A stretch of 8,059 bases of DNA, from NCBI GenBank assembly GCA_029265085.1, contig JAJUJY010000178.1, positions 1 through 8,059 on the forward strand. Direction: 5' to 3'. Within the stretch, counting starts at the first letter, position 1. Each line of letters starts with the position of its first letter. Positions 1 through 8,059 of this stretch are shown piece by piece. The notes beneath the pieces were generated by a model, which saw only the letters and a program-made list of their open reading frames with translations, did no database searches and was not told the DNA's origin. The position numbers and the translations under genes are program-made. The DNA comes from Chloroflexota bacterium (GTDB lineage Bacteria; Chloroflexota; Anaerolineae; Anaerolineales; Anaerolineaceae).

Positions 1-305
1 ACCGGTTTCCAGCTTGCATCAGGGGTAACGGGGGATGGCCAAACCATTCCAAGACTTGCCACCAAAAGAATGGATCCAGCCAGAATCCCCGTATGGATCC
101 AAACCTGTCGTTTGGGAGGGATTTTTTGATTCAGCCAGGCCGCATAGGCATATCCACCGGTGAGCAATACTTGAAAAAACAGCTGCACTGTGGACCAGAC
201 CGCGGGGGTCCCTCCAAAAAATGGCAGAATAAAACGCGATATAAGGGGCTGGATTTGGAATAACAAGAAGGCAGATAAAAAGATGCTTAAAGCATATAGA
301 TTCAT
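1..305 (-). CDS. Spermidine-synthase-like multi-spanning membrane protein, N-terminal part (cut by window edge)
   Basis: Reading leftward from an ATG at 305-303 gives 101 open codons that run off the window. The N-terminus shows FQIQPLISRFILPFFGG followed by TPAVWSTVQLFFQVLL and GGYAYAAWL. This is the hallmark start of the large membrane proteins that carry a C-terminal spermidine-synthase-like (SAM-binding) domain; family members usually have FQ.QPL..+.ILP.FGG.PAVW...+.FFQ. Hydrophobic segments lie at about residues 4-22, 37-58 and 69-89, and a WKP motif follows near residue 99, as in relatives. An SD-like GGAGG (310-314 on the plus strand) sits 4 nt before the ATG. The catalytic domain lies outside the window, so enzymatic activity cannot be judged, and many relatives are not proven polyamine enzymes. 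It is transcribed divergently from regulator 1. An overlapping longer open frame on the same strand (417-19) is out of frame and has no family signature. Confidence 0.85.
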   Translation of the reverse strand, partial: MNLYALSIFLSAFLLFQIQPLISRFILPFFGGTPAVWSTVQLFFQVLLTGGYAYAAWLNQKIPPKRQVWIHTGILAGSILLVASLGMVWPSPVTPDASWKP

Positions 306-321
306 GATGCCTCCTGGGTCT

Positions 322-327
322 ATTGTA
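322..327 (-). promoter_or_regulatory. Possible -10 box for the divergent membrane-protein gene
   Basis: Read on the minus strand this is TACAAT (5 of 6 to TATAAT). Transcription would begin near 315, just ahead of the GGAGG ribosome binding site at 314-310. I see no convincing -35 hexamer at 16-18 bp, so this is tentative and might need an activator. Confidence 0.3.
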
Positions 328-347
328 TTGCGTTCGCGGATTTCTCC

Positions 348-409
348 ATAGCCAATTTGCAAAACAGTTTTGCAAGTATGTTTTATAAATTACGAAATAA
401 TAGCCAATT
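348..409. repeat. Direct repeat ATAGCCAATT, two copies 52 bp apart, in the divergent promoter region
   Basis: ATAGCCAATT occurs at 348-357 and again at 400-409. The 52-bp period is close to five turns of B-DNA, so both copies would face the same side of the helix. The first copy abuts the 19-bp palindrome (shared base 357). They could be half-sites for a regulator that loops or binds cooperatively between the divergent genes. The 12-mer extending the first copy, ATAGCCAATTTG, also occurs inside regulator 2 (5371-5382), which shows that chance occurrence is possible. Confidence 0.45.
357..375. promoter_or_regulatory. Perfect 19-bp palindrome, candidate operator
   Basis: TTGCAAAAC (357-365), one central base, then GTTTTGCAA (367-375): two 9-bp arms with no mismatch. 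It lies between the divergent starts at 305 and 451. No T-run follows it on either strand, so a dimeric regulator site is more likely than a terminator. Its centre is about 82 bp upstream of the predicted regulator-1 transcription start and about 51 bp upstream of the tentative start for the minus-strand gene. I found no second copy in the window. Confidence 0.6.
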
Positions 410-432
410 CCTTTCATTTTGATCTAAGAGTA

Positions 433-441
433 TGCTATATT
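433..441 (+). promoter_or_regulatory. Extended -10 promoter element for regulator 1
   Basis: TGCTATATT fits the extended -10 form TG-N-TATAAT with one mismatch in the hexamer (TATATT, 436-441). The -35 region is weak: TTCATT at 413-418 matches 3 of 6. Transcription would start near 448, only about 2-3 bases before the ATG at 451, implying a nearly leaderless mRNA. Confidence 0.45.
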
Positions 442-450
442 TTGAAAGAT

Positions 451-3177
451 ATGTTAGAGACTCTGCTCCGAACCAAATTGTTTATACCCCAGCGCCGATT
501 AAACCTGGTAACTCGAACCAAATTGTTGGACACCCTCAACCAGGCAAAGCTGCCAGGCGGCAAGTGTATTCTGGTCTCTGCACCTGCCGGATATGGCAAA
601 ACGTCACTGATTGTGGATTGGATTTATGAATTAGGCTGGCCAACTGGTTGGTATTCATTGGATCAAGGGGATAATCAGGCTCGGATATTTTTGAGTTACT
701 TAATTGCCGCTGTACAGGGTGTCATGCCATCGCTTGGCAAAAAAGCAGAGGATTTGCTCTCCTCGGCGTTTTTCGAGGACAGCGAGATTGTTGCCAGCCT
801 GGTAAATGACCTGGCGGTGCAGAACCAGCCATTTCTCCTGGTATTGGACGATTATCAGGCTATTCAAGAGCTGCGCATTCATCAAATTTTGCGTTTGCTG
901 ATCGACAGTTTTCCTGCAACCGGAAGATTGATATTGATCAGCCGGGAAGATCCACCCATTCCGTTGGCCCGACTGCGAGGGAGTGGACAATTAATCGAAC
1001 TACGCCAGGCGCAGCTGATTTTTACCCAGGAAGAGGCTGCCCTGTTTTTACGGTTGGTGATGGGCTTGCAAATTCCCAACGAACAGGTTGCTGTTCTTGA
1101 AGAACGGACTGAAGGATGGATTGCAGGACTTCAACTGGCCGGTCTGGCATTACAAAACATTAAGGACCAGGATCAATTCATCCAATCATTTTCTGGCAGC
1201 CATTATTTCATCCTGGACTACCTGATCGAAGAAGTCCTAAATAAACTTTCAACAGAAGATCAAAAGTTTTTAATGTTTACCTCGATTTTAAGGCGGTTTA
1301 ATGCGGAAATTTGTGCTGCCGTATTAGCGGATGAAGAACATACCGTAGATGTCTGCCAGTCTCGACTCGAACATTTCGAACGATTAAATTTGTTTATTAT
1401 TCCATTGGATACAGAAAGAAATTATTACCGGTATCATCACTTGTTTGGTGATTTGCTGCAAGTTCGTTTGAAAGCAATTTACCTCAAACAGATCCCTGAT
1501 CTACATTTGCGCGCATCGCTCTGGTTAGCTAATGAAAAACAATCGAAAGCAGCCCTGGACCATGCATTAGCAGGCCATCATTATCATTGGGCTGCGGACA
1601 TCATTGAGTCAAATATTCATCAGCATTGGAAAAGTTCTGATTTGGAATTCTTCCAATACATTTCCCAGATTCCAGATGATATCTTGCGTACACGTCCTCC
1701 ACTTTGCTTAGAGTACGCCTGGTTTGGTGTGATTACCGGGCAGCTATCACTTGTGGCAGCGATGGTAGATGCTGCTGAGGCAGTACTTAAACCTGTAAAT
1801 CACTGGCAATCTGAAGAATTAAATGACAAAGACAAGGAATCGATTGCCTTTGCCCGGGTCTTGCGGGCTTATGTCAAGGATTTTGCCAATCAATCCAATC
1901 CGCTTGATCCTGACCTGGACCAGGCTCTTCGTCTTGCAGCAGAAGATCAAGTAGCCATGCGCAATAGTATTGCGGTGGTTCTGGGAACCTTATATTTTAT
2001 GGAAGGGGATTTTATTGCTGCTGAACGATATTTTCTGGAGACCATCCAGCGTGATAAGCAGGCAAATGGAACCAATGCTGTTCCAATAGCGGCCTCTCGG
2101 CTAGCGCGAATTTACATTTTGCAAGGACGATTGCCGGAAGCCGCCCGAATATTACAGGAGAATCTCTTGTATGTTCGTGATCTCGGCATTCGCCGTTTTT
2201 ATGTGCCTGGGAACCTCTGCGTTATGTTGGCGAGTATCTACCGTGAATGGGGACGCAGCCAGGATGCTGAGGATCTTTTTGAGGAAGGGATGAGTTTATT
2301 CCTATCCAGGCCAGTTCCTCAATCTATGCTGGTAGGGCTGGCGCATTTTGCGGAGCTGGCAATGGATCAAGGCCGGTTGGAAGAGGCGGGCAAGCTGATT
2401 GGTCAGGCGGAAAAAATCCTGCAAAAAACGAATATTCATCCGGAAACCATCCAATTGTTGCAATCTAGCCAACTACGATTCTGGGGCTTACAAAACGATA
2501 CCGAGGAGATCAAAACATGGATTGATCGGATGGAATATACATTGCCGCAATTTGATTTTCGCCACGAACTTGAAAACCTCAACCGGGCGAACGCTTATTT
2601 GGCTCTCAACCGTCAAGAAGATGGTCTGAATTTGTTGAAAAAAATCCTGGTTGAAGCGGAAAAAGCGGGCAGAATGAACACAACGGTTTCTGTTTTGGTC
2701 TTACTGGCAAAATATTCATCAATTGAAGCCGGGTTGAGCTTTTTGGCAAGAGCGATATCGATGGCGGAACCGTCCGGCTATCTGAATGTGTTCCTTAAAG
2801 CAGGTGAGCCGCTTTGGCAGCGGCTAGAAATGCTTGCTCAGGAATTTTCAACTTCGGGTATGCAGCAAAAATATTTACCCTATATCAACCGAATATTAGC
2901 TGCCGCTTCTCTTCAGAAAAAGCTGCTGGTTAACCAAACCGTATTGTCCGGACCTGTTTTGCCGCAAGGGTTGGTTGAACCTTTAACGGACCGTGAATTA
3001 GAAGTGCTGCGGTTGGTAGCGGATGGCCTGTCGAACCAGGAAATCGCGGACCGGTTAATTATTTCGGTGCGCACAGCAAAAAAACACATCCAAAATATTT
3101 ATGGGAAATTGGCTGTGGAAGGGCGAGTTCAGGCGATTAATCGAGCCAACGAACTTCACCTTTTGGAACTCAAATAA
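451..3177 (+). CDS. MalT-type STAND ATPase transcriptional regulator with LuxR DNA-binding domain (regulator 1)
   Basis: A 908-aa protein, close to the roughly 900 aa of E. coli MalT. It starts with the family's LLRTKLFIP lead-in. Walker A is APAGYGKT (residues 44-51) and Walker B is LLVLDD (129-134). The SREDPP and LARLR motifs of the STAND ATPase module follow, then YRYHHLF (326-332) at the end of the winged-helix part. A long helical, TPR-like region runs to about residue 835. A GerE/LuxR helix-turn-helix occupies about 841-905 (LTDRELEVLRLVADGLSNQE, then SVRTAKKHI). In this family an inducer binds the TPR region and triggers ATP-dependent oligomerisation and promoter activation; the ligand here is unknown. 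The open frame extends back to a TTG at 370, but homology begins at the ATG at 451, and the extra 27 residues would run through the palindrome and promoter. There is no good SD, only GAAAG at 444-448. It is not the maltose regulator by context: no sugar genes are nearby. Confidence 0.93.
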   Translation: MLETLLRTKLFIPQRRLNLVTRTKLLDTLNQAKLPGGKCILVSAPAGYGKTSLIVDWIYELGWPTGWYSLDQGDNQARIFLSYLIAAVQGVMPSLGKKAEDLLSSAFFEDSEIVASLVNDLAVQNQPFLLVLDDYQAIQELRIHQILRLLIDSFPATGRLILISREDPPIPLARLRGSGQLIELRQAQLIFTQEEAALFLRLVMGLQIPNEQVAVLEERTEGWIAGLQLAGLALQNIKDQDQFIQSFSGSHYFILDYLIEEVLNKLSTEDQKFLMFTSILRRFNAEICAAVLADEEHTVDVCQSRLEHFERLNLFIIPLDTERNYYRYHHLFGDLLQVRLKAIYLKQIPDLHLRASLWLANEKQSKAALDHALAGHHYHWAADIIESNIHQHWKSSDLEFFQYISQIPDDILRTRPPLCLEYAWFGVITGQLSLVAAMVDAAEAVLKPVNHWQSEELNDKDKESIAFARVLRAYVKDFANQSNPLDPDLDQALRLAAEDQVAMRNSIAVVLGTLYFMEGDFIAAERYFLETIQRDKQANGTNAVPIAASRLARIYILQGRLPEAARILQENLLYVRDLGIRRFYVPGNLCVMLASIYREWGRSQDAEDLFEEGMSLFLSRPVPQSMLVGLAHFAELAMDQGRLEEAGKLIGQAEKILQKTNIHPETIQLLQSSQLRFWGLQNDTEEIKTWIDRMEYTLPQFDFRHELENLNRANAYLALNRQEDGLNLLKKILVEAEKAGRMNTTVSVLVLLAKYSSIEAGLSFLARAISMAEPSGYLNVFLKAGEPLWQRLEMLAQEFSTSGMQQKYLPYINRILAAASLQKKLLVNQTVLSGPVLPQGLVEPLTDRELEVLRLVADGLSNQEIADRLIISVRTAKKHIQNIYGKLAVEGRVQAINRANELHLLELK
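469..527 (+). repeat. In-frame 14-bp direct repeat near the start of regulator 1
   Basis: CGAACCAAATTGTT is present at 469-482 and again at 514-527, exactly 45 bp (15 codons) apart. Both copies are read in the same frame as Arg-Thr-Lys-Leu. The first is the usual family lead-in; at the second place relatives more often have a variant such as R.RL. Confidence 0.6.
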
Positions 3178-3231
3178 ATACTCCCCCAAATACGCCTTTC
3201 GTACACTGTGAAAAAGAATCCAGACAGTTAA

Positions 3232-3249
3232 TATAAGGTTGTCCTTATA
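3232..3249. promoter_or_regulatory. 7-bp inverted repeat before the membrane-protein gene
   Basis: TATAAGG, spacer TTGT, then CCTTATA. It overlaps a possible -10 hexamer TATAAC (3246-3251), for which CAGACA (3221-3226) is a poor -35 at 19 bp. No T-run follows, so an operator or RNA hairpin upstream of the 3275 gene is more likely than a terminator for regulator 1. The whole 3178-3274 gap otherwise shows no clear terminator. Confidence 0.35.
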
Positions 3250-3274
3250 ACAATTTGAAATTGAGAGGAAACCT

Positions 3275-3667
3275 ATGAAAACTGTTCCTACTTTATCATT
3301 GAATGCTTTGTTGTTCCCGTTTATCCTGGGAATCATTGTGCTGGCAATTGCTTTGGCTGTGTCGGCAAATAAATCCTTGCCGCTCATTCAAACACCTCGA
3401 GCAGCTTTGATTGTTTTGCTGGTCATTGGCATGACCATGTGCTCATTTGGGATTGGTCAGGTTGCTGCCAGCGGAAAATGGGCATCTCCATTGGCCATTG
3501 CAGGTTATCTGCTTGGCACAGCCTTATTGGTGGTTATTTTTAGCGGGATTTTTGGATGGAAATTACCGGTTCTGCCAACCCCGCGTGATGCGGTCTTGGC
3601 TGCTTCCCTGTTGATTGGTATAAAATACCTGATTGGTACGGTGAGTTATTTCTTTCACTTGTTGTAG
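3275..3667 (+). CDS. Small four-helix integral membrane protein with internal duplication, function unknown
   Basis: A 130-aa, very hydrophobic protein with four predicted membrane segments, at about residues 12-31, 43-62, 73-93 and 105-127. It appears to be built from two copies of a two-helix unit: LPLIQTPR (35-42), which leads into helix 2, recurs as LPVLPTPR (97-104), which leads into helix 4, with 62 residues between them. The ATG at 3275 is supported by AGAGG (3264-3268), six bases upstream. There is no signal-peptide cleavage pattern and no catalytic motif. It lies 97 bp after regulator 1 on the same strand and is followed by a strong hairpin. I recall similar unnamed membrane proteins in Anaerolineae genomes but cannot name a family. 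Candidate roles are a membrane partner or target of the regulator; this is inference from position only. Confidence 0.85.
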   Translation: MKTVPTLSLNALLFPFILGIIVLAIALAVSANKSLPLIQTPRAALIVLLVIGMTMCSFGIGQVAASGKWASPLAIAGYLLGTALLVVIFSGIFGWKLPVLPTPRDAVLAASLLIGIKYLIGTVSYFFHLL

Positions 3668-3687
3668 CTGAACTGGAAAGAATTTGG

Positions 3688-3719
3688 TGGAACTGGCGGG
3701 TAGAACCTTGCCAGTTCCA
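3688..3719 (+). terminator. Strong hairpin between the membrane-protein and small-protein genes, likely terminator or attenuator
   Basis: TGGAACTGGC (3688-3697) pairs perfectly over 10 bp with GCCAGTTCCA (3710-3719). The 12-nt loop can itself form GGT-AGA-ACC. A T-rich but interrupted tract follows (3720-3729, TTGTTGTTTT). It starts 21 bases after the stop of the 3275 gene and ends 33 bases before the next start. The imperfect T-tract suggests partial termination. Confidence 0.6.
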
Positions 3720-3752
3720 TTGTTGTTTTCAAAACCCTGTTGTGGAGGTTCA

Positions 3753-3989
3753 ATGAATGTTGATCGGATAATTTATGAGGTGCGGATTGTTGAAGCATTG
3801 GATGATTATCTGCTGAATTGGTTTTCGGATGTTGAAATCGTGCGCTGCACCGACCCAGGTGAACCGTTGGAAGCGTACACCTTATTTTTTTGTGCTTTAC
3901 CAGACCAGGCTGCTTTTTTTGAGATCTTGTCACGCATCCGCGATTTGAATTTGACAATAATTTCTATTCAAAAGATCTCTAACTGTTAG
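3753..3989 (+). CDS. Small DQ-motif protein, predicted beta-alpha-beta-beta-alpha-beta fold (copy 1)
   Basis: A 78-aa protein. The ATG at 3753 is chosen because GGAGG (3744-3748) lies 4 nt before it; the in-frame upstream extension runs through the hairpin. The residue pattern suggests a first strand (YEVRIVEAL, residues 8-16), a helix ending in NWF, two strands (VEIVRC and AYTLFFCAL), a helix starting at PDQAAF and holding LSRIRDL, and a last strand (LTIISI). This resembles a ferredoxin-like or ACT-like arrangement. I recall short unnamed Chloroflexota proteins with the same 'WF ... PDQAAL..LL.+.RDL.L.L.SV' layout next to MalT-type regulators, but no function is established. It resembles the protein at 7480. 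It lies downstream of regulator 1 and upstream of the nitroreductase gene. A ligand-binding or partner role is inference. Confidence 0.85.
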   Translation: MNVDRIIYEVRIVEALDDYLLNWFSDVEIVRCTDPGEPLEAYTLFFCALPDQAAFFEILSRIRDLNLTIISIQKISNC

Positions 3990-4009
3990 GATGGCTTATC
4001 GTTTTGTCC

Positions 4010-4038
4010 TTGCGAAATTTCTATTCAGCGAGCATAAT
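4010..4038 (+). promoter_or_regulatory. Candidate sigma-70-type promoter for the nitroreductase gene
   Basis: TTGCGA (4010-4015, 4 of 6) and CATAAT (4033-4038, 5 of 6) are separated by 17 bp. Transcription would start near 4045, leaving a leader of about 40 nt with a weak GGAA (4071-4074) nine bases before the ATG. An inverted repeat AATAC-CATC-GTATT (4040-4053) covers the predicted start and could be an operator. Confidence 0.4.
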
Positions 4039-4083
4039 AAATACCATCGTATTAAATTGGTGAAATCTTTGGAAATATAATCG

Positions 4084-4593
4084 ATGGAACTTTTAGAAGC
4101 AATTTTTACCCGGCGGAGTGTTCGAAAATTTACTGGAGAGCCAGTACAAGAAGATAATTTGCAGACGATTCTACGTGCGGGATGTTATGCACCTTCTGCA
4201 ACCAACCGGCAGCCCTGGCGTTTTGTAGTGATTCGTGATCCAAAAACATTAGAGGCAATTTCCAAAATTCAACCCTTTTCCAAAATGATCCCCCAGGCGG
4301 GCTGCTGTATTGTGGTTTGTGGTGATAAGGAACGCCAGGGGATGATGGGCTTTTTGGTGGAAGATTGTTCGGCTGCCATGCAAAATATGCTTCTGGCAGC
4401 ACATGGATTGGGCCTGGGTGCGGTGTGGTGTGGGTTGTATCCGGTGCCTCTTTTTACAAAGCCGGTTGCCAAACTGCTTGGTTTGCCTGCAAAGATTGTT
4501 CCGGTAGGGATGATGGCGTTAGGAATTCCAGCCGAAACACGCAGCGTGGAGGATCGTTTTGACCCCGGAAAAGTTCACTTTGAAAAATGGTAA
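4084..4593 (+). CDS. Nitroreductase-family FMN oxidoreductase
   Basis: A 169-aa protein with clear nitroreductase-fold signatures. RRSVRKF (residues 10-16) is the N-terminal FMN-phosphate-binding motif, and PSATNRQPW (37-45) is the second flavin-contact motif. A long helix (EDCSAAMQNMLLAAHGLG, from 93) leads into GAVWCG (112-117), and GMMALG near the C-terminus completes the flavin site. These enzymes are usually cytoplasmic FMN homodimers using NAD(P)H to reduce quinones, nitro compounds or other electron acceptors; the substrate here cannot be read from sequence. It is at the short end of the family and has no ferredoxin domain. Six cysteines (34, 74, 75, 79, 95, 116) are notable for this length, though no iron-sulfur spacing is evident. 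It lies between the first small protein and regulator 2, whose start is 45 bp after this stop. Confidence 0.92.
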   Translation: MELLEAIFTRRSVRKFTGEPVQEDNLQTILRAGCYAPSATNRQPWRFVVIRDPKTLEAISKIQPFSKMIPQAGCCIVVCGDKERQGMMGFLVEDCSAAMQNMLLAAHGLGLGAVWCGLYPVPLFTKPVAKLLGLPAKIVPVGMMALGIPAETRSVEDRFDPGKVHFEKW

Positions 4594-4602
4594 ATTCACC
4601 GG

Positions 4603-4630
4603 TTGATAAACTGCCTGTCCATAGTAAAAT
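4603..4630 (+). promoter_or_regulatory. Sigma-70-type promoter for regulator 2
   Basis: TTGATA (4603-4608, 5 of 6) and TAAAAT (4625-4630, 5 of 6) are separated by 16 bp. This is the best promoter match in the window. The predicted transcription start, about 4636-4638, falls directly before the ATG at 4639, so the mRNA would be leaderless. Confidence 0.55.
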
Positions 4631-4638
4631 GATGGATA

Positions 4639-7353
4639 ATGCCTAAACCTCTGCTGCTGACAAAATTATATATGCCTCCGCCGCGGCCTGACCGGGTCTT
4701 TCGTTTGCGTCTGACAGAAAGACTGAACGAAGGGCTTGTTTTAGGCCGCAAGTTGACTTTAATTTCTGCCCCGGCAGGGTTTGGTAAAACAACCTGTGTG
4801 GTGGACTGGCTCAGTACGCTGAATTGCCCCTTCACATGGTTATCTTTGGATGCTCTGGATGATGATCCAGGCCGATTTTTTACCTATTTAATTGCAGCAT
4901 TGCAAAAAGTGGATCCATCCATTGGGAGCGAAATTGATGAAGCGCTAAAAATGGGTCAAATTCCTCCTCTGGATGTCATATGTACGACGTTGATTAACGA
5001 TATCCTCAGCGTAGCTTCTCGTTTTTTGCTGGTATTGGATGATTTTCAAACCATTCAACATCGCTCGATTTTAGAAGTAATCGACTTTTTAATTGCCAAC
5101 CAGCCAGAGCAACTGCATATTGTCATGATTACCCGCGAGGATCCCCTGTTGCCTTTGGCTCGGATGCGTGCTAAAGACCAGGTAACAGAAATTCGTGCGG
5201 GCGATCTGCGTTTCACCAATGCAGAATCGAGCAGCTTCCTAAACGAGAAAATGGGGCTTACCCTCACGGCTGACGATATCATCACCTTGGAAAATCGCAC
5301 CGAAGGATGGGCAGTCGGACTGCAGTTGGCTGGATTGTCGATGCGTGGGCGTGAAGATCCCTCTCGGTTTATAGCCAATTTGAGTGGAAATCACCGCTTT
5401 ATCCTCAATTATCTGACCGAAGAAGTGCTTAATCAACAAAGCGAAGAAGTTCAAACCTTCTTGCTGCAAACCTCTATCTTAAATAAATTCACTGGCGATC
5501 TTTGCGATGCAATCACAGGCAGAACGGATAGCGGTTTGCTGTTGGAAAAGCTCTATACGGGGAATTTGTTTTTGGTTTCGTTAGACGATGTGCAGCTGTG
5601 GTACCGCTATCACCACCTTTTCGCAGATTTGCTGCGCAGTCAACAAAATCGAATTTCCAAAGAGCAGATGAACCAGCTTCACTGGCGGGCAAGCCAATGG
5701 TTTGCACAGACGGAAATGCCGGCAGAAGCCATTCGCCATGCTCTTGCGGCAGAGGATTATGCACTGGCTGTTAATCTCATTGAGCAGTACGCCATGCCGA
5801 TGATCCAACAGGGGTATGTTCAAACCGTTGAAGGATGGATGCAATCCGTGCCAAGCGAATGGCATTTGGCCAGCCCGCGGGCTAATCTGGCTTTTGCCTG
5901 GATGTATTTGTTGCGAGGGAATTACGACCGAATCCCAGAGCACATGGAGCGGATTCAAGCTGCTTTAGTGCGGGTGGATCGGTCTGAACAAGAACAAACT
6001 TTGTTGCAGGCAGAATGGCATGCCTTGCAAGCTGGCTTCTTAAATGTGATCGGAAAAACAGCTGAGAGCATTGAACACGCAAATCGCACATTGCAATTGA
6101 CAACCTCGGAACATGCCATGATTCGCAGCATGGCCTATATTGGTATGGCGGGAGCCTATCGGCAGATGGGTGATTACCTCCGGTCTTCGGAGGCATACCA
6201 AAATGCGATCCAGTACAGCCGGGCAACTGAGAATCCGATTTCAGAAATGCTGGCAGTTGCCAATCTGGCTTTAATGGCAATCCAGCATGGCGAACTGCGG
6301 TTTGCGGCGGAAATTGCTGAACGCGGCATAGAGAATAGGAAAAATTCCGGGAAAATGCCGCCGATTGCGGCTTCTGTGTATGGGGCGCTGGGATTGGTTT
6401 GTTATGAATGGAATCAGCTTGAGAGAGCGCAGCAGCTCTATGAAAAAGCAGCTCAATTGGCTCTGTTAGGTGGTCATAATGCGGCTTTAATCTTCACGAT
6501 GGTATTAAAAGCTCGTTTGCAGGCCGTTATGGGTAATGTTCAAGTTGCGGCTCAGCTCATTGGACAGGCAGCCGATTTACTCCCGCGAGGAGCACCCCTT
6601 TGGGTGGGTCCTGAAGTCATATCAACCCAAGTGCAGATTTACCTTAATCAGGATAGCCCTGTTTTGGCTGAGAATGTATTAAAGCAGCTTGGAATTTTCC
6701 CGCTGCCTCAAAATGCTCAGGAACCCAACCCCGCTTTAGGAAATCACTTGATCTACCTGGCTGCAATCCGTTATTGGTTGTACCAGGCCAGGCGAAACAA
6801 TAATTTCACAAGTATAGAATATGAGCTAAACCGCCTTTCCCAATTTATTGAAAATATGCGGAAGGGGCAATTTACAACCCTGTTGTTGCAAGGGCTGCTC
6901 ATGCGTGCACAACTTTATGATTTGACGGATCAGAATGAACAGGCTTTGAATGACCTGGCCCAGGCACTGTTGATCGCTGAACCGGAAGGATATATTCGCA
7001 TATTTGTCGACGCAGGTGTGGTAATTAAAAAACTTTTGTTCCAAGTGGTGCAGGTTGGAAAGCTGCACCCTGCCCAGCAAAAATATGCAGAGCAGGTAAT
7101 CGCGGTGTTTCCAAAGGCAGCACCTCGCCAGGAGCCAACCGCATTGGCTCAAGAATTGGATGAACCGCTTTCTGAGCGCGAAATTGAAGTTTTACGATTC
7201 CTGGCAGACGGCCTGAAATATGATGAAATTGCTGAGCAATTGGTGGTCTCTGTAAACACAGTGCGTTTTTATGTCAAAGAAATTTACAGCAAGCTGCAAG
7301 TCAACAACCGGACCAAAGCTGTTGAAACAGCACGAAAAATACAGCTTATATAA
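4639..7353 (+). CDS. MalT-type STAND ATPase transcriptional regulator with LuxR DNA-binding domain (regulator 2)
   Basis: A 904-aa protein with the same layout as regulator 1. Lead-in LLLTKLYMPPPRP starts at residue 5, Walker A is APAGFGKTT (44-52), and Walker B is LLVLDD (130-135). TREDPLLPLARMR follows, then NRTEGWAVGLQLAG and YRYHHLF (322-328). A TPR-like helical region follows, and a C-terminal LuxR helix-turn-helix spans about 840-904 (LSEREIEVLRFLADGL, then SVNTVRFYVKEIYSKL). Walker A is at the same residue number as in regulator 1, but the TPR regions are strongly diverged, so the two probably sense different signals. Their recognition helices also differ (SVNTVRFYV against SVRTAKKHI), so their DNA sites likely differ. 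The ATG at 4639 is the first residue of family homology, and no SD stands at a good distance. Target genes are unknown; the small protein and flavodoxin genes downstream are natural candidates. Confidence 0.93.
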   Translation: MPKPLLLTKLYMPPPRPDRVFRLRLTERLNEGLVLGRKLTLISAPAGFGKTTCVVDWLSTLNCPFTWLSLDALDDDPGRFFTYLIAALQKVDPSIGSEIDEALKMGQIPPLDVICTTLINDILSVASRFLLVLDDFQTIQHRSILEVIDFLIANQPEQLHIVMITREDPLLPLARMRAKDQVTEIRAGDLRFTNAESSSFLNEKMGLTLTADDIITLENRTEGWAVGLQLAGLSMRGREDPSRFIANLSGNHRFILNYLTEEVLNQQSEEVQTFLLQTSILNKFTGDLCDAITGRTDSGLLLEKLYTGNLFLVSLDDVQLWYRYHHLFADLLRSQQNRISKEQMNQLHWRASQWFAQTEMPAEAIRHALAAEDYALAVNLIEQYAMPMIQQGYVQTVEGWMQSVPSEWHLASPRANLAFAWMYLLRGNYDRIPEHMERIQAALVRVDRSEQEQTLLQAEWHALQAGFLNVIGKTAESIEHANRTLQLTTSEHAMIRSMAYIGMAGAYRQMGDYLRSSEAYQNAIQYSRATENPISEMLAVANLALMAIQHGELRFAAEIAERGIENRKNSGKMPPIAASVYGALGLVCYEWNQLERAQQLYEKAAQLALLGGHNAALIFTMVLKARLQAVMGNVQVAAQLIGQAADLLPRGAPLWVGPEVISTQVQIYLNQDSPVLAENVLKQLGIFPLPQNAQEPNPALGNHLIYLAAIRYWLYQARRNNNFTSIEYELNRLSQFIENMRKGQFTTLLLQGLLMRAQLYDLTDQNEQALNDLAQALLIAEPEGYIRIFVDAGVVIKKLLFQVVQVGKLHPAQQKYAEQVIAVFPKAAPRQEPTALAQELDEPLSEREIEVLRFLADGLKYDEIAEQLVVSVNTVRFYVKEIYSKLQVNNRTKAVETARKIQLI

Positions 7354-7391
7354 TTCCCTGAATTCGATAAAACTACATCTTTTTTGAACAC

Positions 7392-7418
7392 AGACTGCAT
7401 GAAAATGTGGTCTTTTTT
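7392..7418 (+). terminator. Rho-independent terminator after regulator 2
   Basis: AGACTGCAT (7392-7400) pairs with ATGTGGTCT (7405-7413) over 9 bp, including two G-U pairs. The loop is GAAA, and six T residues (7413-7418) follow. It is 38 bp after the regulator stop, so the two downstream genes probably need their own promoter. Confidence 0.85.
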
Positions 7419-7420
7419 AT

Positions 7421-7452
7421 GGTTATTTTGGTTATTCTAAAGATGTAATAAC
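7421..7452. repeat. GGTTATT direct repeat with an inverted GTTATT partner, candidate operator for the small-protein gene
   Basis: GGTTATT occurs at 7421-7427 and 7430-7436 (period 9), and AATAAC, the reverse complement of GTTATT, occurs at 7447-7452. The cluster lies between the terminator and the start of the 7480 gene, where its promoter should be. A -10-like TATATT (7458-7463) sits too close to the ribosome binding site to be convincing. The repeats may be binding half-sites, though AT-rich DNA yields such matches by chance. Confidence 0.4.
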
Positions 7453-7479
7453 TTGATTATATTTATAGAGGATTGGATG

Positions 7480-7701
7480 ATGGATGATATTTGCACCTAT
7501 ATAATTCAGGTGTTCGGCAAGGTCTCAGAAGATGAAATTAATCTGAACAGCCCATATCGGATGACCCTGAATTGTGAAGATAACCAATATACCAGTTTTA
7601 CCGTTAGCACTGATCAATCGGGCATGGTTGGATTGATCCGGCACATCCACGGATTGGGATTTGTGCTTCAATCGGTTGCACGATCAACCAAGACCGCATA
7701 A
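7480..7701 (+). CDS. Small DQ-motif protein (copy 2), diverged relative of the 3753 protein
   Basis: A 73-aa protein. AGAGGA (7467-7472) lies 7 nt before the ATG at 7480 and 4 nt before an adjacent in-frame ATG at 7477, so the start may be one codon earlier; the TTG at 7453 precedes the ribosome binding site and is unlikely. The protein begins with a strand-like CTYIIQVFGKV. Its C-terminal half, YTSFTVSTDQSGMVGL then IRHIHGLGFVLQSV, lines up with YTLFFCALPDQAAFFEI then LSRIRDLNLTIISI of the 3753 protein, sharing the DQ at the start of the helix, the helix pattern and the last strand. The NWF motif of copy 1 is missing. It follows regulator 2 and precedes the flavodoxin gene by 54 bp, with which it is probably co-transcribed. 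Function is unknown. Confidence 0.82.
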   Translation: MDDICTYIIQVFGKVSEDEINLNSPYRMTLNCEDNQYTSFTVSTDQSGMVGLIRHIHGLGFVLQSVARSTKTA

Positions 7702-7706
7702 AAACC

Positions 7707-7719
7707 ACATTATTAATGT
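7707..7719. repeat. 13-bp AT-rich palindrome between the small-protein and flavodoxin genes
   Basis: ACATTA, one base, TAATGT: two perfect 6-bp arms, six bases after the stop of the 7480 gene. It is followed by TTTTG rather than a long T-run, so it is at best a weak terminator. It might be an operator or chance. Confidence 0.3.
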
Positions 7720-7755
7720 TTTGAGAATTGTCAGTAATTTTTTAGGAGAGAGACC

Positions 7756-8059
7756 ATGACAAAGAAAGTGTTGGTTACGTATGCTTCTCGCGCAGGCTCT
7801 ACTGCAGAAATTGCCCAGACGATTGCAGGAGAGTTGGCCATGCGCGGATTCATGGTAGATTTACGCTCCGTAAGAGAAGCAGAGAATGTTGCTCAATACG
7901 ACGCGGTGGTGGTTGGCAGCGCGATCCGTATGAGCCAGTGGATGCCTGAAGCGATGAAATTTGTTGAGAAAAATCAAGTAGTGCTGCAGCAAAAAGACAC
8001 GGCGTTCTTCTCGGTGTATTTGATGAATATGGGGCAGGACGAAGTCAGCCGCAAGGCAC
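7756..8059 (+). CDS. Flavodoxin-domain protein, HemG-like, N-terminal part (cut by window edge)
   Basis: An ATG at 7756 with a strong AGGAG (7744-7748) seven bases upstream, preceded by a T-rich stretch, opens 101 codons that run off the right edge. The protein begins MTKKVLVTYASRAGSTAEIA: a first beta strand followed by the flavodoxin FMN-phosphate loop (TYASRAGSTAEIA, residues 8-20). It continues with AQYDAVVVGSAIRMSQW, the second strand and flavin-contact loop (residues about 45-63). The stretch FFSVYLMN begins the third strand. This is the pattern of flavodoxin-domain proteins related to HemG, the menaquinone-dependent protoporphyrinogen IX dehydrogenase, but without the C-terminus and without heme genes nearby a heme role is not shown. 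It is probably an FMN-dependent electron carrier or oxidoreductase in the cytoplasm. It is the second FMN-type protein to follow a small DQ-motif gene here. Confidence 0.88.
   Translation, partial: MTKKVLVTYASRAGSTAEIAQTIAGELAMRGFMVDLRSVREAENVAQYDAVVVGSAIRMSQWMPEAMKFVEKNQVVLQQKDTAFFSVYLMNMGQDEVSRKA

Follow-up and report, generated by a model that had tools for sequence, protein, structure and literature searches.

The 8,059-nucleotide stretch considered here, the window (contig JAJUJY010000178.1, positions 1 to 8,059), comes from a bacterium of the Chloroflexota and carries two successive units, each comprising a large MalT-type STAND regulator, a small protein of 73-78 amino acids and a protein of a flavin mononucleotide (FMN) family. 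This layout had been proposed in an earlier interpretation made from the letters alone (the sequence-only reading), and it was confirmed: open reading frames lie at the positions given below, and Pfam assigns the regulators and the flavoproteins, the latter, as had also been claimed, to different families (nitroreductase, PF00881; Flavodoxin_5, PF12724). The small proteins, small A and small B, represent what is termed here the DQ family, a name taken from the sequence-only reading (DL, DI or DE replaces DQ in several members), and their recurrent association with MalT-type regulators is the main subject of this analysis. All seven genes are on the + strand, with intergenic gaps of 45-123 nucleotides (nt), and the features are arranged as follows.

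451..3177, + strand: regulator 1, a MalT-type STAND ATPase with a TPR_MalT region and a LuxR helix-turn-helix (HTH) domain, 908 amino acids
3275..3667, + strand: membrane protein, 130 amino acids, for which a simple hydropathy scan predicts about four transmembrane (TM) segments; no Pfam family above cut-off
3670..3717, no strand: candidate box array before small A, its function presumed; GAACTGG three times (two direct, one inverted) at spacings of 20 and 21 bp
3685..3722, + strand: hairpin of 16 pairs, then a T-rich stretch
3753..3989, + strand: small A, DQ-family protein of 78 amino acids with a predicted ACT/RAM-like fold
4084..4593, + strand: nitroreductase-family protein, 169 amino acids, a putative locus-specific output
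4639..7353, + strand: regulator 2, a MalT-type STAND ATPase with TPR_MalT and LuxR HTH, 904 amino acids
7392..7413, + strand: hairpin of nine pairs and a T run after it, in the gap that separates small B from regulator 2
7477..7701, + strand: small B, divergent DQ-family protein of 73-74 amino acids with the same predicted fold (a start at 7480 is equally possible)
7756..8059, + strand: Flavodoxin_5 protein truncated by the window end, a putative locus-specific output

Both regulators belong to a known class, the MalT-type STAND/LuxR proteins. The TPR_MalT model (PF17874) matches regulators 1 and 2 with 160 and 129 bits (cut-off 45), and a C-terminal LuxR-type HTH (GerE, PF00196) follows with 64.5 and 60.4 bits (cut-off 23.5). 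A P-loop is read near the N-terminus of the translations (APAGYGKTS and APAGFGKTT, respectively), where the AAA models of Pfam give weak matches below cut-off. This layout of STAND ATPase, TPR_MalT and LuxR HTH is shared with the MalT of Escherichia coli, from which the window regulators nevertheless differ in scoring 467.6 and 423.7 bits with the NCBIfam MalT model NF003420, under its curated cut-off of 537 bits for MalT orthologues. With an end-to-end identity of 31%, the two are old paralogues rather than products of a recent duplication. A scan of genome contigs, its patterns taken from variable stretches of regulator 1, found 18 loci, none of them titled Chloroflexota.

Small A and small B, on the evidence of profile comparison, are remote members of one family that profiles detect and BLASTP does not: 14 of 70 aligned residues are identical and BLASTP returned no alignment between the two, whereas a two-member small-B profile matched the family profile at 96% with hhalign (E 4e-9). 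The family was first recognised through a plasmid relative, a 78-amino-acid protein of Candidatus Chlorohelix (Chloroflexota) that aligns with small A. A profile of six rows, four plasmid relatives together with small A and small B, put the family at 7,997 protein clusters or more (E 0.001), and all 120 of the clusters listed lacked a Pfam domain. Pfam has no family for small A or small B, and a single-sequence search of the protein database with either returned only the query itself. When 41 members were compared with Pfam a single weak match resulted (E 0.029), and with NCBIfam at most eight gave weak matches, the best at E 0.0064 and all to unrelated families. No relative was found among viral contigs and phages, none of small B among plasmids, and none of the family in 299 genomes from the phylum of a Superficieibacter, a set without a positive control.

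The association of the small protein with a MalT-type regulator recurs across phyla, far above chance. Three family queries matched 11 distinct plasmid records, in seven of which a MalT-type regulator precedes the small gene on its strand, and these pairs span Chloroflexota, Cyanobacteriota, Deinococcota and Streptomyces.

Candidatus Chlorohelix (Chloroflexota) plasmid: regulator 183 nt upstream of the 78-amino-acid small protein
Deinococcus psychrotolerans plasmid (L036, 5977-6210): regulator 97 nt upstream; small gene absent from the PLSDB gene table
Deinococcus KNUC1210 plasmid (L037, about 6001-6207): regulator about 150 nt upstream; in-frame stop in the small gene, which has no PLSDB table entry
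'Pseudomonas DR48' 10-kb plasmid record (L035): regulator 0.8 kb upstream, with a membrane protein between it and the small gene
Acaryochloris marina plasmid: regulator 3.6 kb upstream
Streptomyces anulatus, two near-identical plasmid records: regulator 3.2-3.3 kb upstream

The other four records are Rhodococcus plasmids with no paired regulator; one of them is fragmented around transposases, and one match lies at the first bases of its record. The 'Pseudomonas DR48' record also carries a pta-like gene, and its regulator and small protein most resemble ones from other phyla; the record may represent a foreign fragment or a misassembly.

The same association was observed in 299 genomes of the Bacillota, so named here because the set was drawn from the phylum of a Clostridiales record. 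Fourteen DQ-family matches were found in 12 of these genomes, four of the 14 having first been met in a 61-genome draw from the same phylum. Eleven of the 14 adjoin a regulator, ten at a place matched by TPR_MalT and the eleventh at the HTH end of a regulator at a contig edge, against about 0.06 that chance would place within 3 kb of a regulator. Among the ten, the G021 match is short and weak (E 8.7e-5) and overlaps, in a different reading frame, a regulator frame that is broken; its exclusion leaves 10 of 13. Seen by genome, 39 of the 299 have TPR_MalT, and these include ten of the 12 with a DQ gene (1.6 expected, p 2.6e-8). From the side of the regulator the link is looser: of 50 TPR_MalT places 10 have a family gene beside them, as do 9 of the 17 that score above 100 bits, with scoring limited to the few best candidates of each genome. 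That a regulator and a tiny protein are adjacent in several phyla suggests that the protein serves this switch as a dedicated partner. A record titled Calditrichales (L018/G002) yielded a phylum draw that shares genomes with the Clostridiales-phylum draw, and its title is probably outdated.

Three Bacillota matches are unpaired: G397 and G590:C115, in both of which DLPA replaces DQAA, and the small-B-like G422. One DLPA variant (L070, 2709-2948) lies next to genes for a DUF3784 membrane protein and a ketopantoate-reductase-like enzyme, and another (L067, 9910-10188) lies between GNAT-like and CPBP-like genes, identified by eye; neither has a MalT-type regulator nearby. A single Bacillota genome holds a relative of small B at 43% identity, the sole close one found (L073, 9914-10126); ahead of it are a 191-amino-acid membrane protein and, by eye, a TetR-like regulator, and the 20-kb stretch around it contains no MalT-type regulator. 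The two-member small-B profile, applied to the Bacillota draw, matched one of 299 genomes, namely its own source genome.

Such a pairing might also arise by hitch-hiking, that is, as an old gene order moved jointly by horizontal transfer with no functional dependence between its parts. Several of the pairs are indeed plasmid-borne, and the distances among regulators correlate with those among their small proteins (r 0.76, p 1e-4, n=15 pairs; r 0.42, p 0.018, n=13 when two of three close relatives are removed), a correlation that shared descent alone could produce. The pair persists across phyla, however, despite a varying order and strand, the DQ gene being mostly downstream but upstream in L043 and convergent in L069, and despite other genes intervening between it and the regulator in L021, L035 and L042. 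Passive co-transfer is regarded as improbable.

The third part of the proposed unit, the FMN protein, fared differently. In ten Bacillota genomes the nitroreductase and FMN_red models, the two FMN families surveyed (flavodoxin families were left out), matched 70 and 52 places, some genes being counted twice. Around the 12 DQ genes of these genomes, out to 5 kb, there were one FMN_red and zero nitroreductase places, against 0.47 expected, and hence no enrichment. The sequence-only reading had held that regulator, small protein and FMN protein are selected together as a redox- or flavin-responsive signalling unit. Its regulator/small-protein part is upheld by the recurrence described above (7/11 plasmid records, 11/14 Bacillota matches) and its FMN part is not, in the sample surveyed; with FMN genes at background near the Bacillota DQ genes, redox or flavin responsiveness is not supported as a general function. 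Agreement with it comes from both units of the window (2/2), from G515, where an FMN_red gene lies directly 3' of the small gene, and from the D. psychrotolerans plasmid, where a nitroreductase gene lies upstream on the far side of an IS3 element. Set against the Bacillota count, and with the Chloroflexota sampled via plasmids, these instances leave a single redox module the most improbable of the explanations considered, and the flavin enzymes look like locus-specific output, or local cargo.

Other neighbours of DQ genes include alpha/beta hydrolases, an S41 peptidase, ApbA (ketopantoate-reductase-like), HlyD/FtsX efflux proteins, DUF6326, DUF308 and DUF3784 proteins, MMPL and MFS transporters and small membrane proteins. 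An alpha/beta hydrolase gene is found next to, or one gene beyond, the DQ gene at L045, L066, L072 and L065, three of which are close relatives; because an inhibitor of E. coli MalT, Aes, is an esterase (PMC10427625, excerpts), the regulator might be a target of the hydrolase as well. A membrane protein was considered as a fixed third part and rejected: at least three TM segments are present in 8 of 32 DQ-flanking genes, among which some regulators had slipped in, compared with 31 of 221 genes elsewhere (p 0.09).

The DNA upstream of some DQ genes contains arrays of three to four copies of a 7-8 bp word. Before small A, GAACTGG occurs three times within 48 bp, an arrangement matched in 2 of 200 shuffles, and the window as a whole has four copies, three of them in this array. 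The word TCCCCACA occurs four times upstream of the Acaryochloris DQ gene and ACCCGACC four times upstream of that of G590:C24 (0/200 shuffles in each case), and AACCTAAC three times upstream of those of both G013 and G403. With a word length of 7, chosen from three examined, arrays (≤3/200 shuffles) precede 5 of 18 DQ genes and 4 of 158 other genes of the same loci (p 0.0006), or 4 of 16 and 3 of 157 with relatives merged (p 0.0015); the control comprises called genes of at least 100 amino acids and may include a few over-long family frames. The remaining 13 of the 18 DQ upstreams, that of small B among them, fail this test. A three-box element, ACCTAACC-spacer-GTTAGGkT-NN-AACCyAACC followed by GAGTTATAA, can be aligned in four Bacillota genomes, of which three are closely related. 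Exact matches to its right half, the core, were confined to DQ upstreams among eight genomes scanned, and with up to 2 mismatches the element gave 24 matches in these eight compared with 18 for a reversed control pattern. Three near-matches inspected elsewhere were not counted as sites, that of G013:C35 being in a coding frame and those of G013:C10 and G403:C1 between housekeeping genes.

The hairpin at 3685..3722 may be a terminator, an attenuator or the inverted boxes themselves, and that before small B a terminator or attenuator. Terminator-like hairpin sites are in weak excess in the window (13, compared with 8.8 in shuffles), and 8 of 19 DQ upstreams scanned, including L070 and L073, contain one, a count with no control set. 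An Rfam scan of the window at E 0.5 gave no match.

MalT binds DNA at promoter arrays of short boxes, and the arrays before DQ genes would by analogy be binding sites of the adjacent regulator. Binding of MalT to the sites in its target promoters is cooperative (PMC10427625, excerpts). Arrays between a regulator and a DQ gene are equally what would be expected of a plain target gene, and the DQ protein could be a mere output of the regulator: a small protein that serves neighbouring enzymes or membrane proteins by binding a ligand or in an accessory role, and that never contacts the regulator itself. The family members at L067, L070 and L073, which sit beside other genes with no MalT-type regulator, accord with such a role. 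Were it a plain output, the DQ gene should accompany its enzyme, whereas it is the neighbouring enzymes that change from locus to locus and the regulator that stays constant; an output-only role is considered somewhat unlikely.

The predicted models of small A and small B (pLDDT, the predicted local distance difference test, 80.9 and 83.9) adopt a beta-alpha-beta-beta-alpha-beta fold, which is predicted to resemble ACT/RAM ligand-binding domains such as those of the acetohydroxyacid synthase regulatory subunit, homoserine dehydrogenase and Lrp/AsnC. The DQ protein differs from these in being stand-alone, in giving no Pfam match above noise and no significant sequence match in the PDB, and its structural match has a Z within the range of a common arrangement. 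The ACT/RAM-like domains of the matched structures bind ligands in known proteins, and in the pairs seen there is one small gene per regulator; both points favour a co-activator or ligand carrier that would deliver an inducer to the regulator's TPR sensor. E. coli MalT, on the other hand, takes maltotriose with no carrier protein, and its known protein partners are inhibitors (PMC10427625, excerpts), which makes a carrier unlikely.

The explanation preferred here, to which a probability of about 0.42 is given, is that of a feedback partner, and it is modelled on E. coli MalT. At rest this protein is an ADP-bound monomer that assembles upon binding of maltotriose and ATP, and it is restrained by MalY, Aes and MalK, of which MalY covers an oligomerisation surface (PMC10427625; PMC6468293, excerpts of both). 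By analogy, the unit would consist of a MalT-type STAND transcription activator, a dedicated small DQ partner and locus-specific output genes. The resting regulator would be a monomer that, on meeting its ligand, assembles and binds to the short-box array before the DQ gene, and in this array-bound state would switch on both the DQ gene and an output gene, here that of an FMN-family enzyme. As an ACT/RAM-like module, the DQ protein would probably bind a small ligand and would feed back on the regulator; most likely it would inhibit the assembly of the regulator or modulate it in a ligand-gated way, in the manner of MalY, Aes and MalK. A separate protein that controls assembly is thus common to the E. 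coli system and to the one proposed here; the DQ protein differs from the three E. coli inhibitors in being a single domain of 73-78 amino acids, unlike a pyridoxal-phosphate enzyme, an esterase or an ABC ATPase, and in being encoded beside its regulator.

At the left edge of the window (3-362, - strand), divergent from regulator 1, lies the start of a membrane-protein gene truncated by the window edge; its Pfam matches are all below cut-off, and its product presumably resembles the N-terminus of membrane-bound spermidine-synthase-like proteins. The 130-amino-acid membrane protein between regulator 1 and small A gave one weak Pfam match, likewise below cut-off.

MalT-type regulators and the large ATP-binding LuxR (LAL) regulators are common and, to our knowledge, the signal and partner are known for few. 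The LAL regulators of actinomycetes have the same general architecture, and a pair was found in S. anulatus; a small partner is unmentioned among the matches listed from the LAL literature searched, which was available in part. Both the DQ family and its pairing with a regulator appear undescribed within the literature searched, where the matches listed, from a coverage mostly outside subscription journals, held nothing on the pairing or on the DQ motif. The occurrence of the family beside MalT-type regulators across phyla offers a handle on how these regulators are controlled and predicts an interaction between the products of the two genes. It would also provide thousands of unnamed small proteins, some of them missing from gene tables, with a first functional setting, and would parallel the control by inhibitors described for MalT and, in animals, for CED-4 (PMC10427625, excerpts). 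It is a more doubtful proposition that the DQ family as a whole is a widespread, undescribed class of ACT-like small proteins that regulate NLR-related STAND transcription factors in five or more phyla, each regulator having one dedicated partner that gates its assembly through feedback or a ligand.

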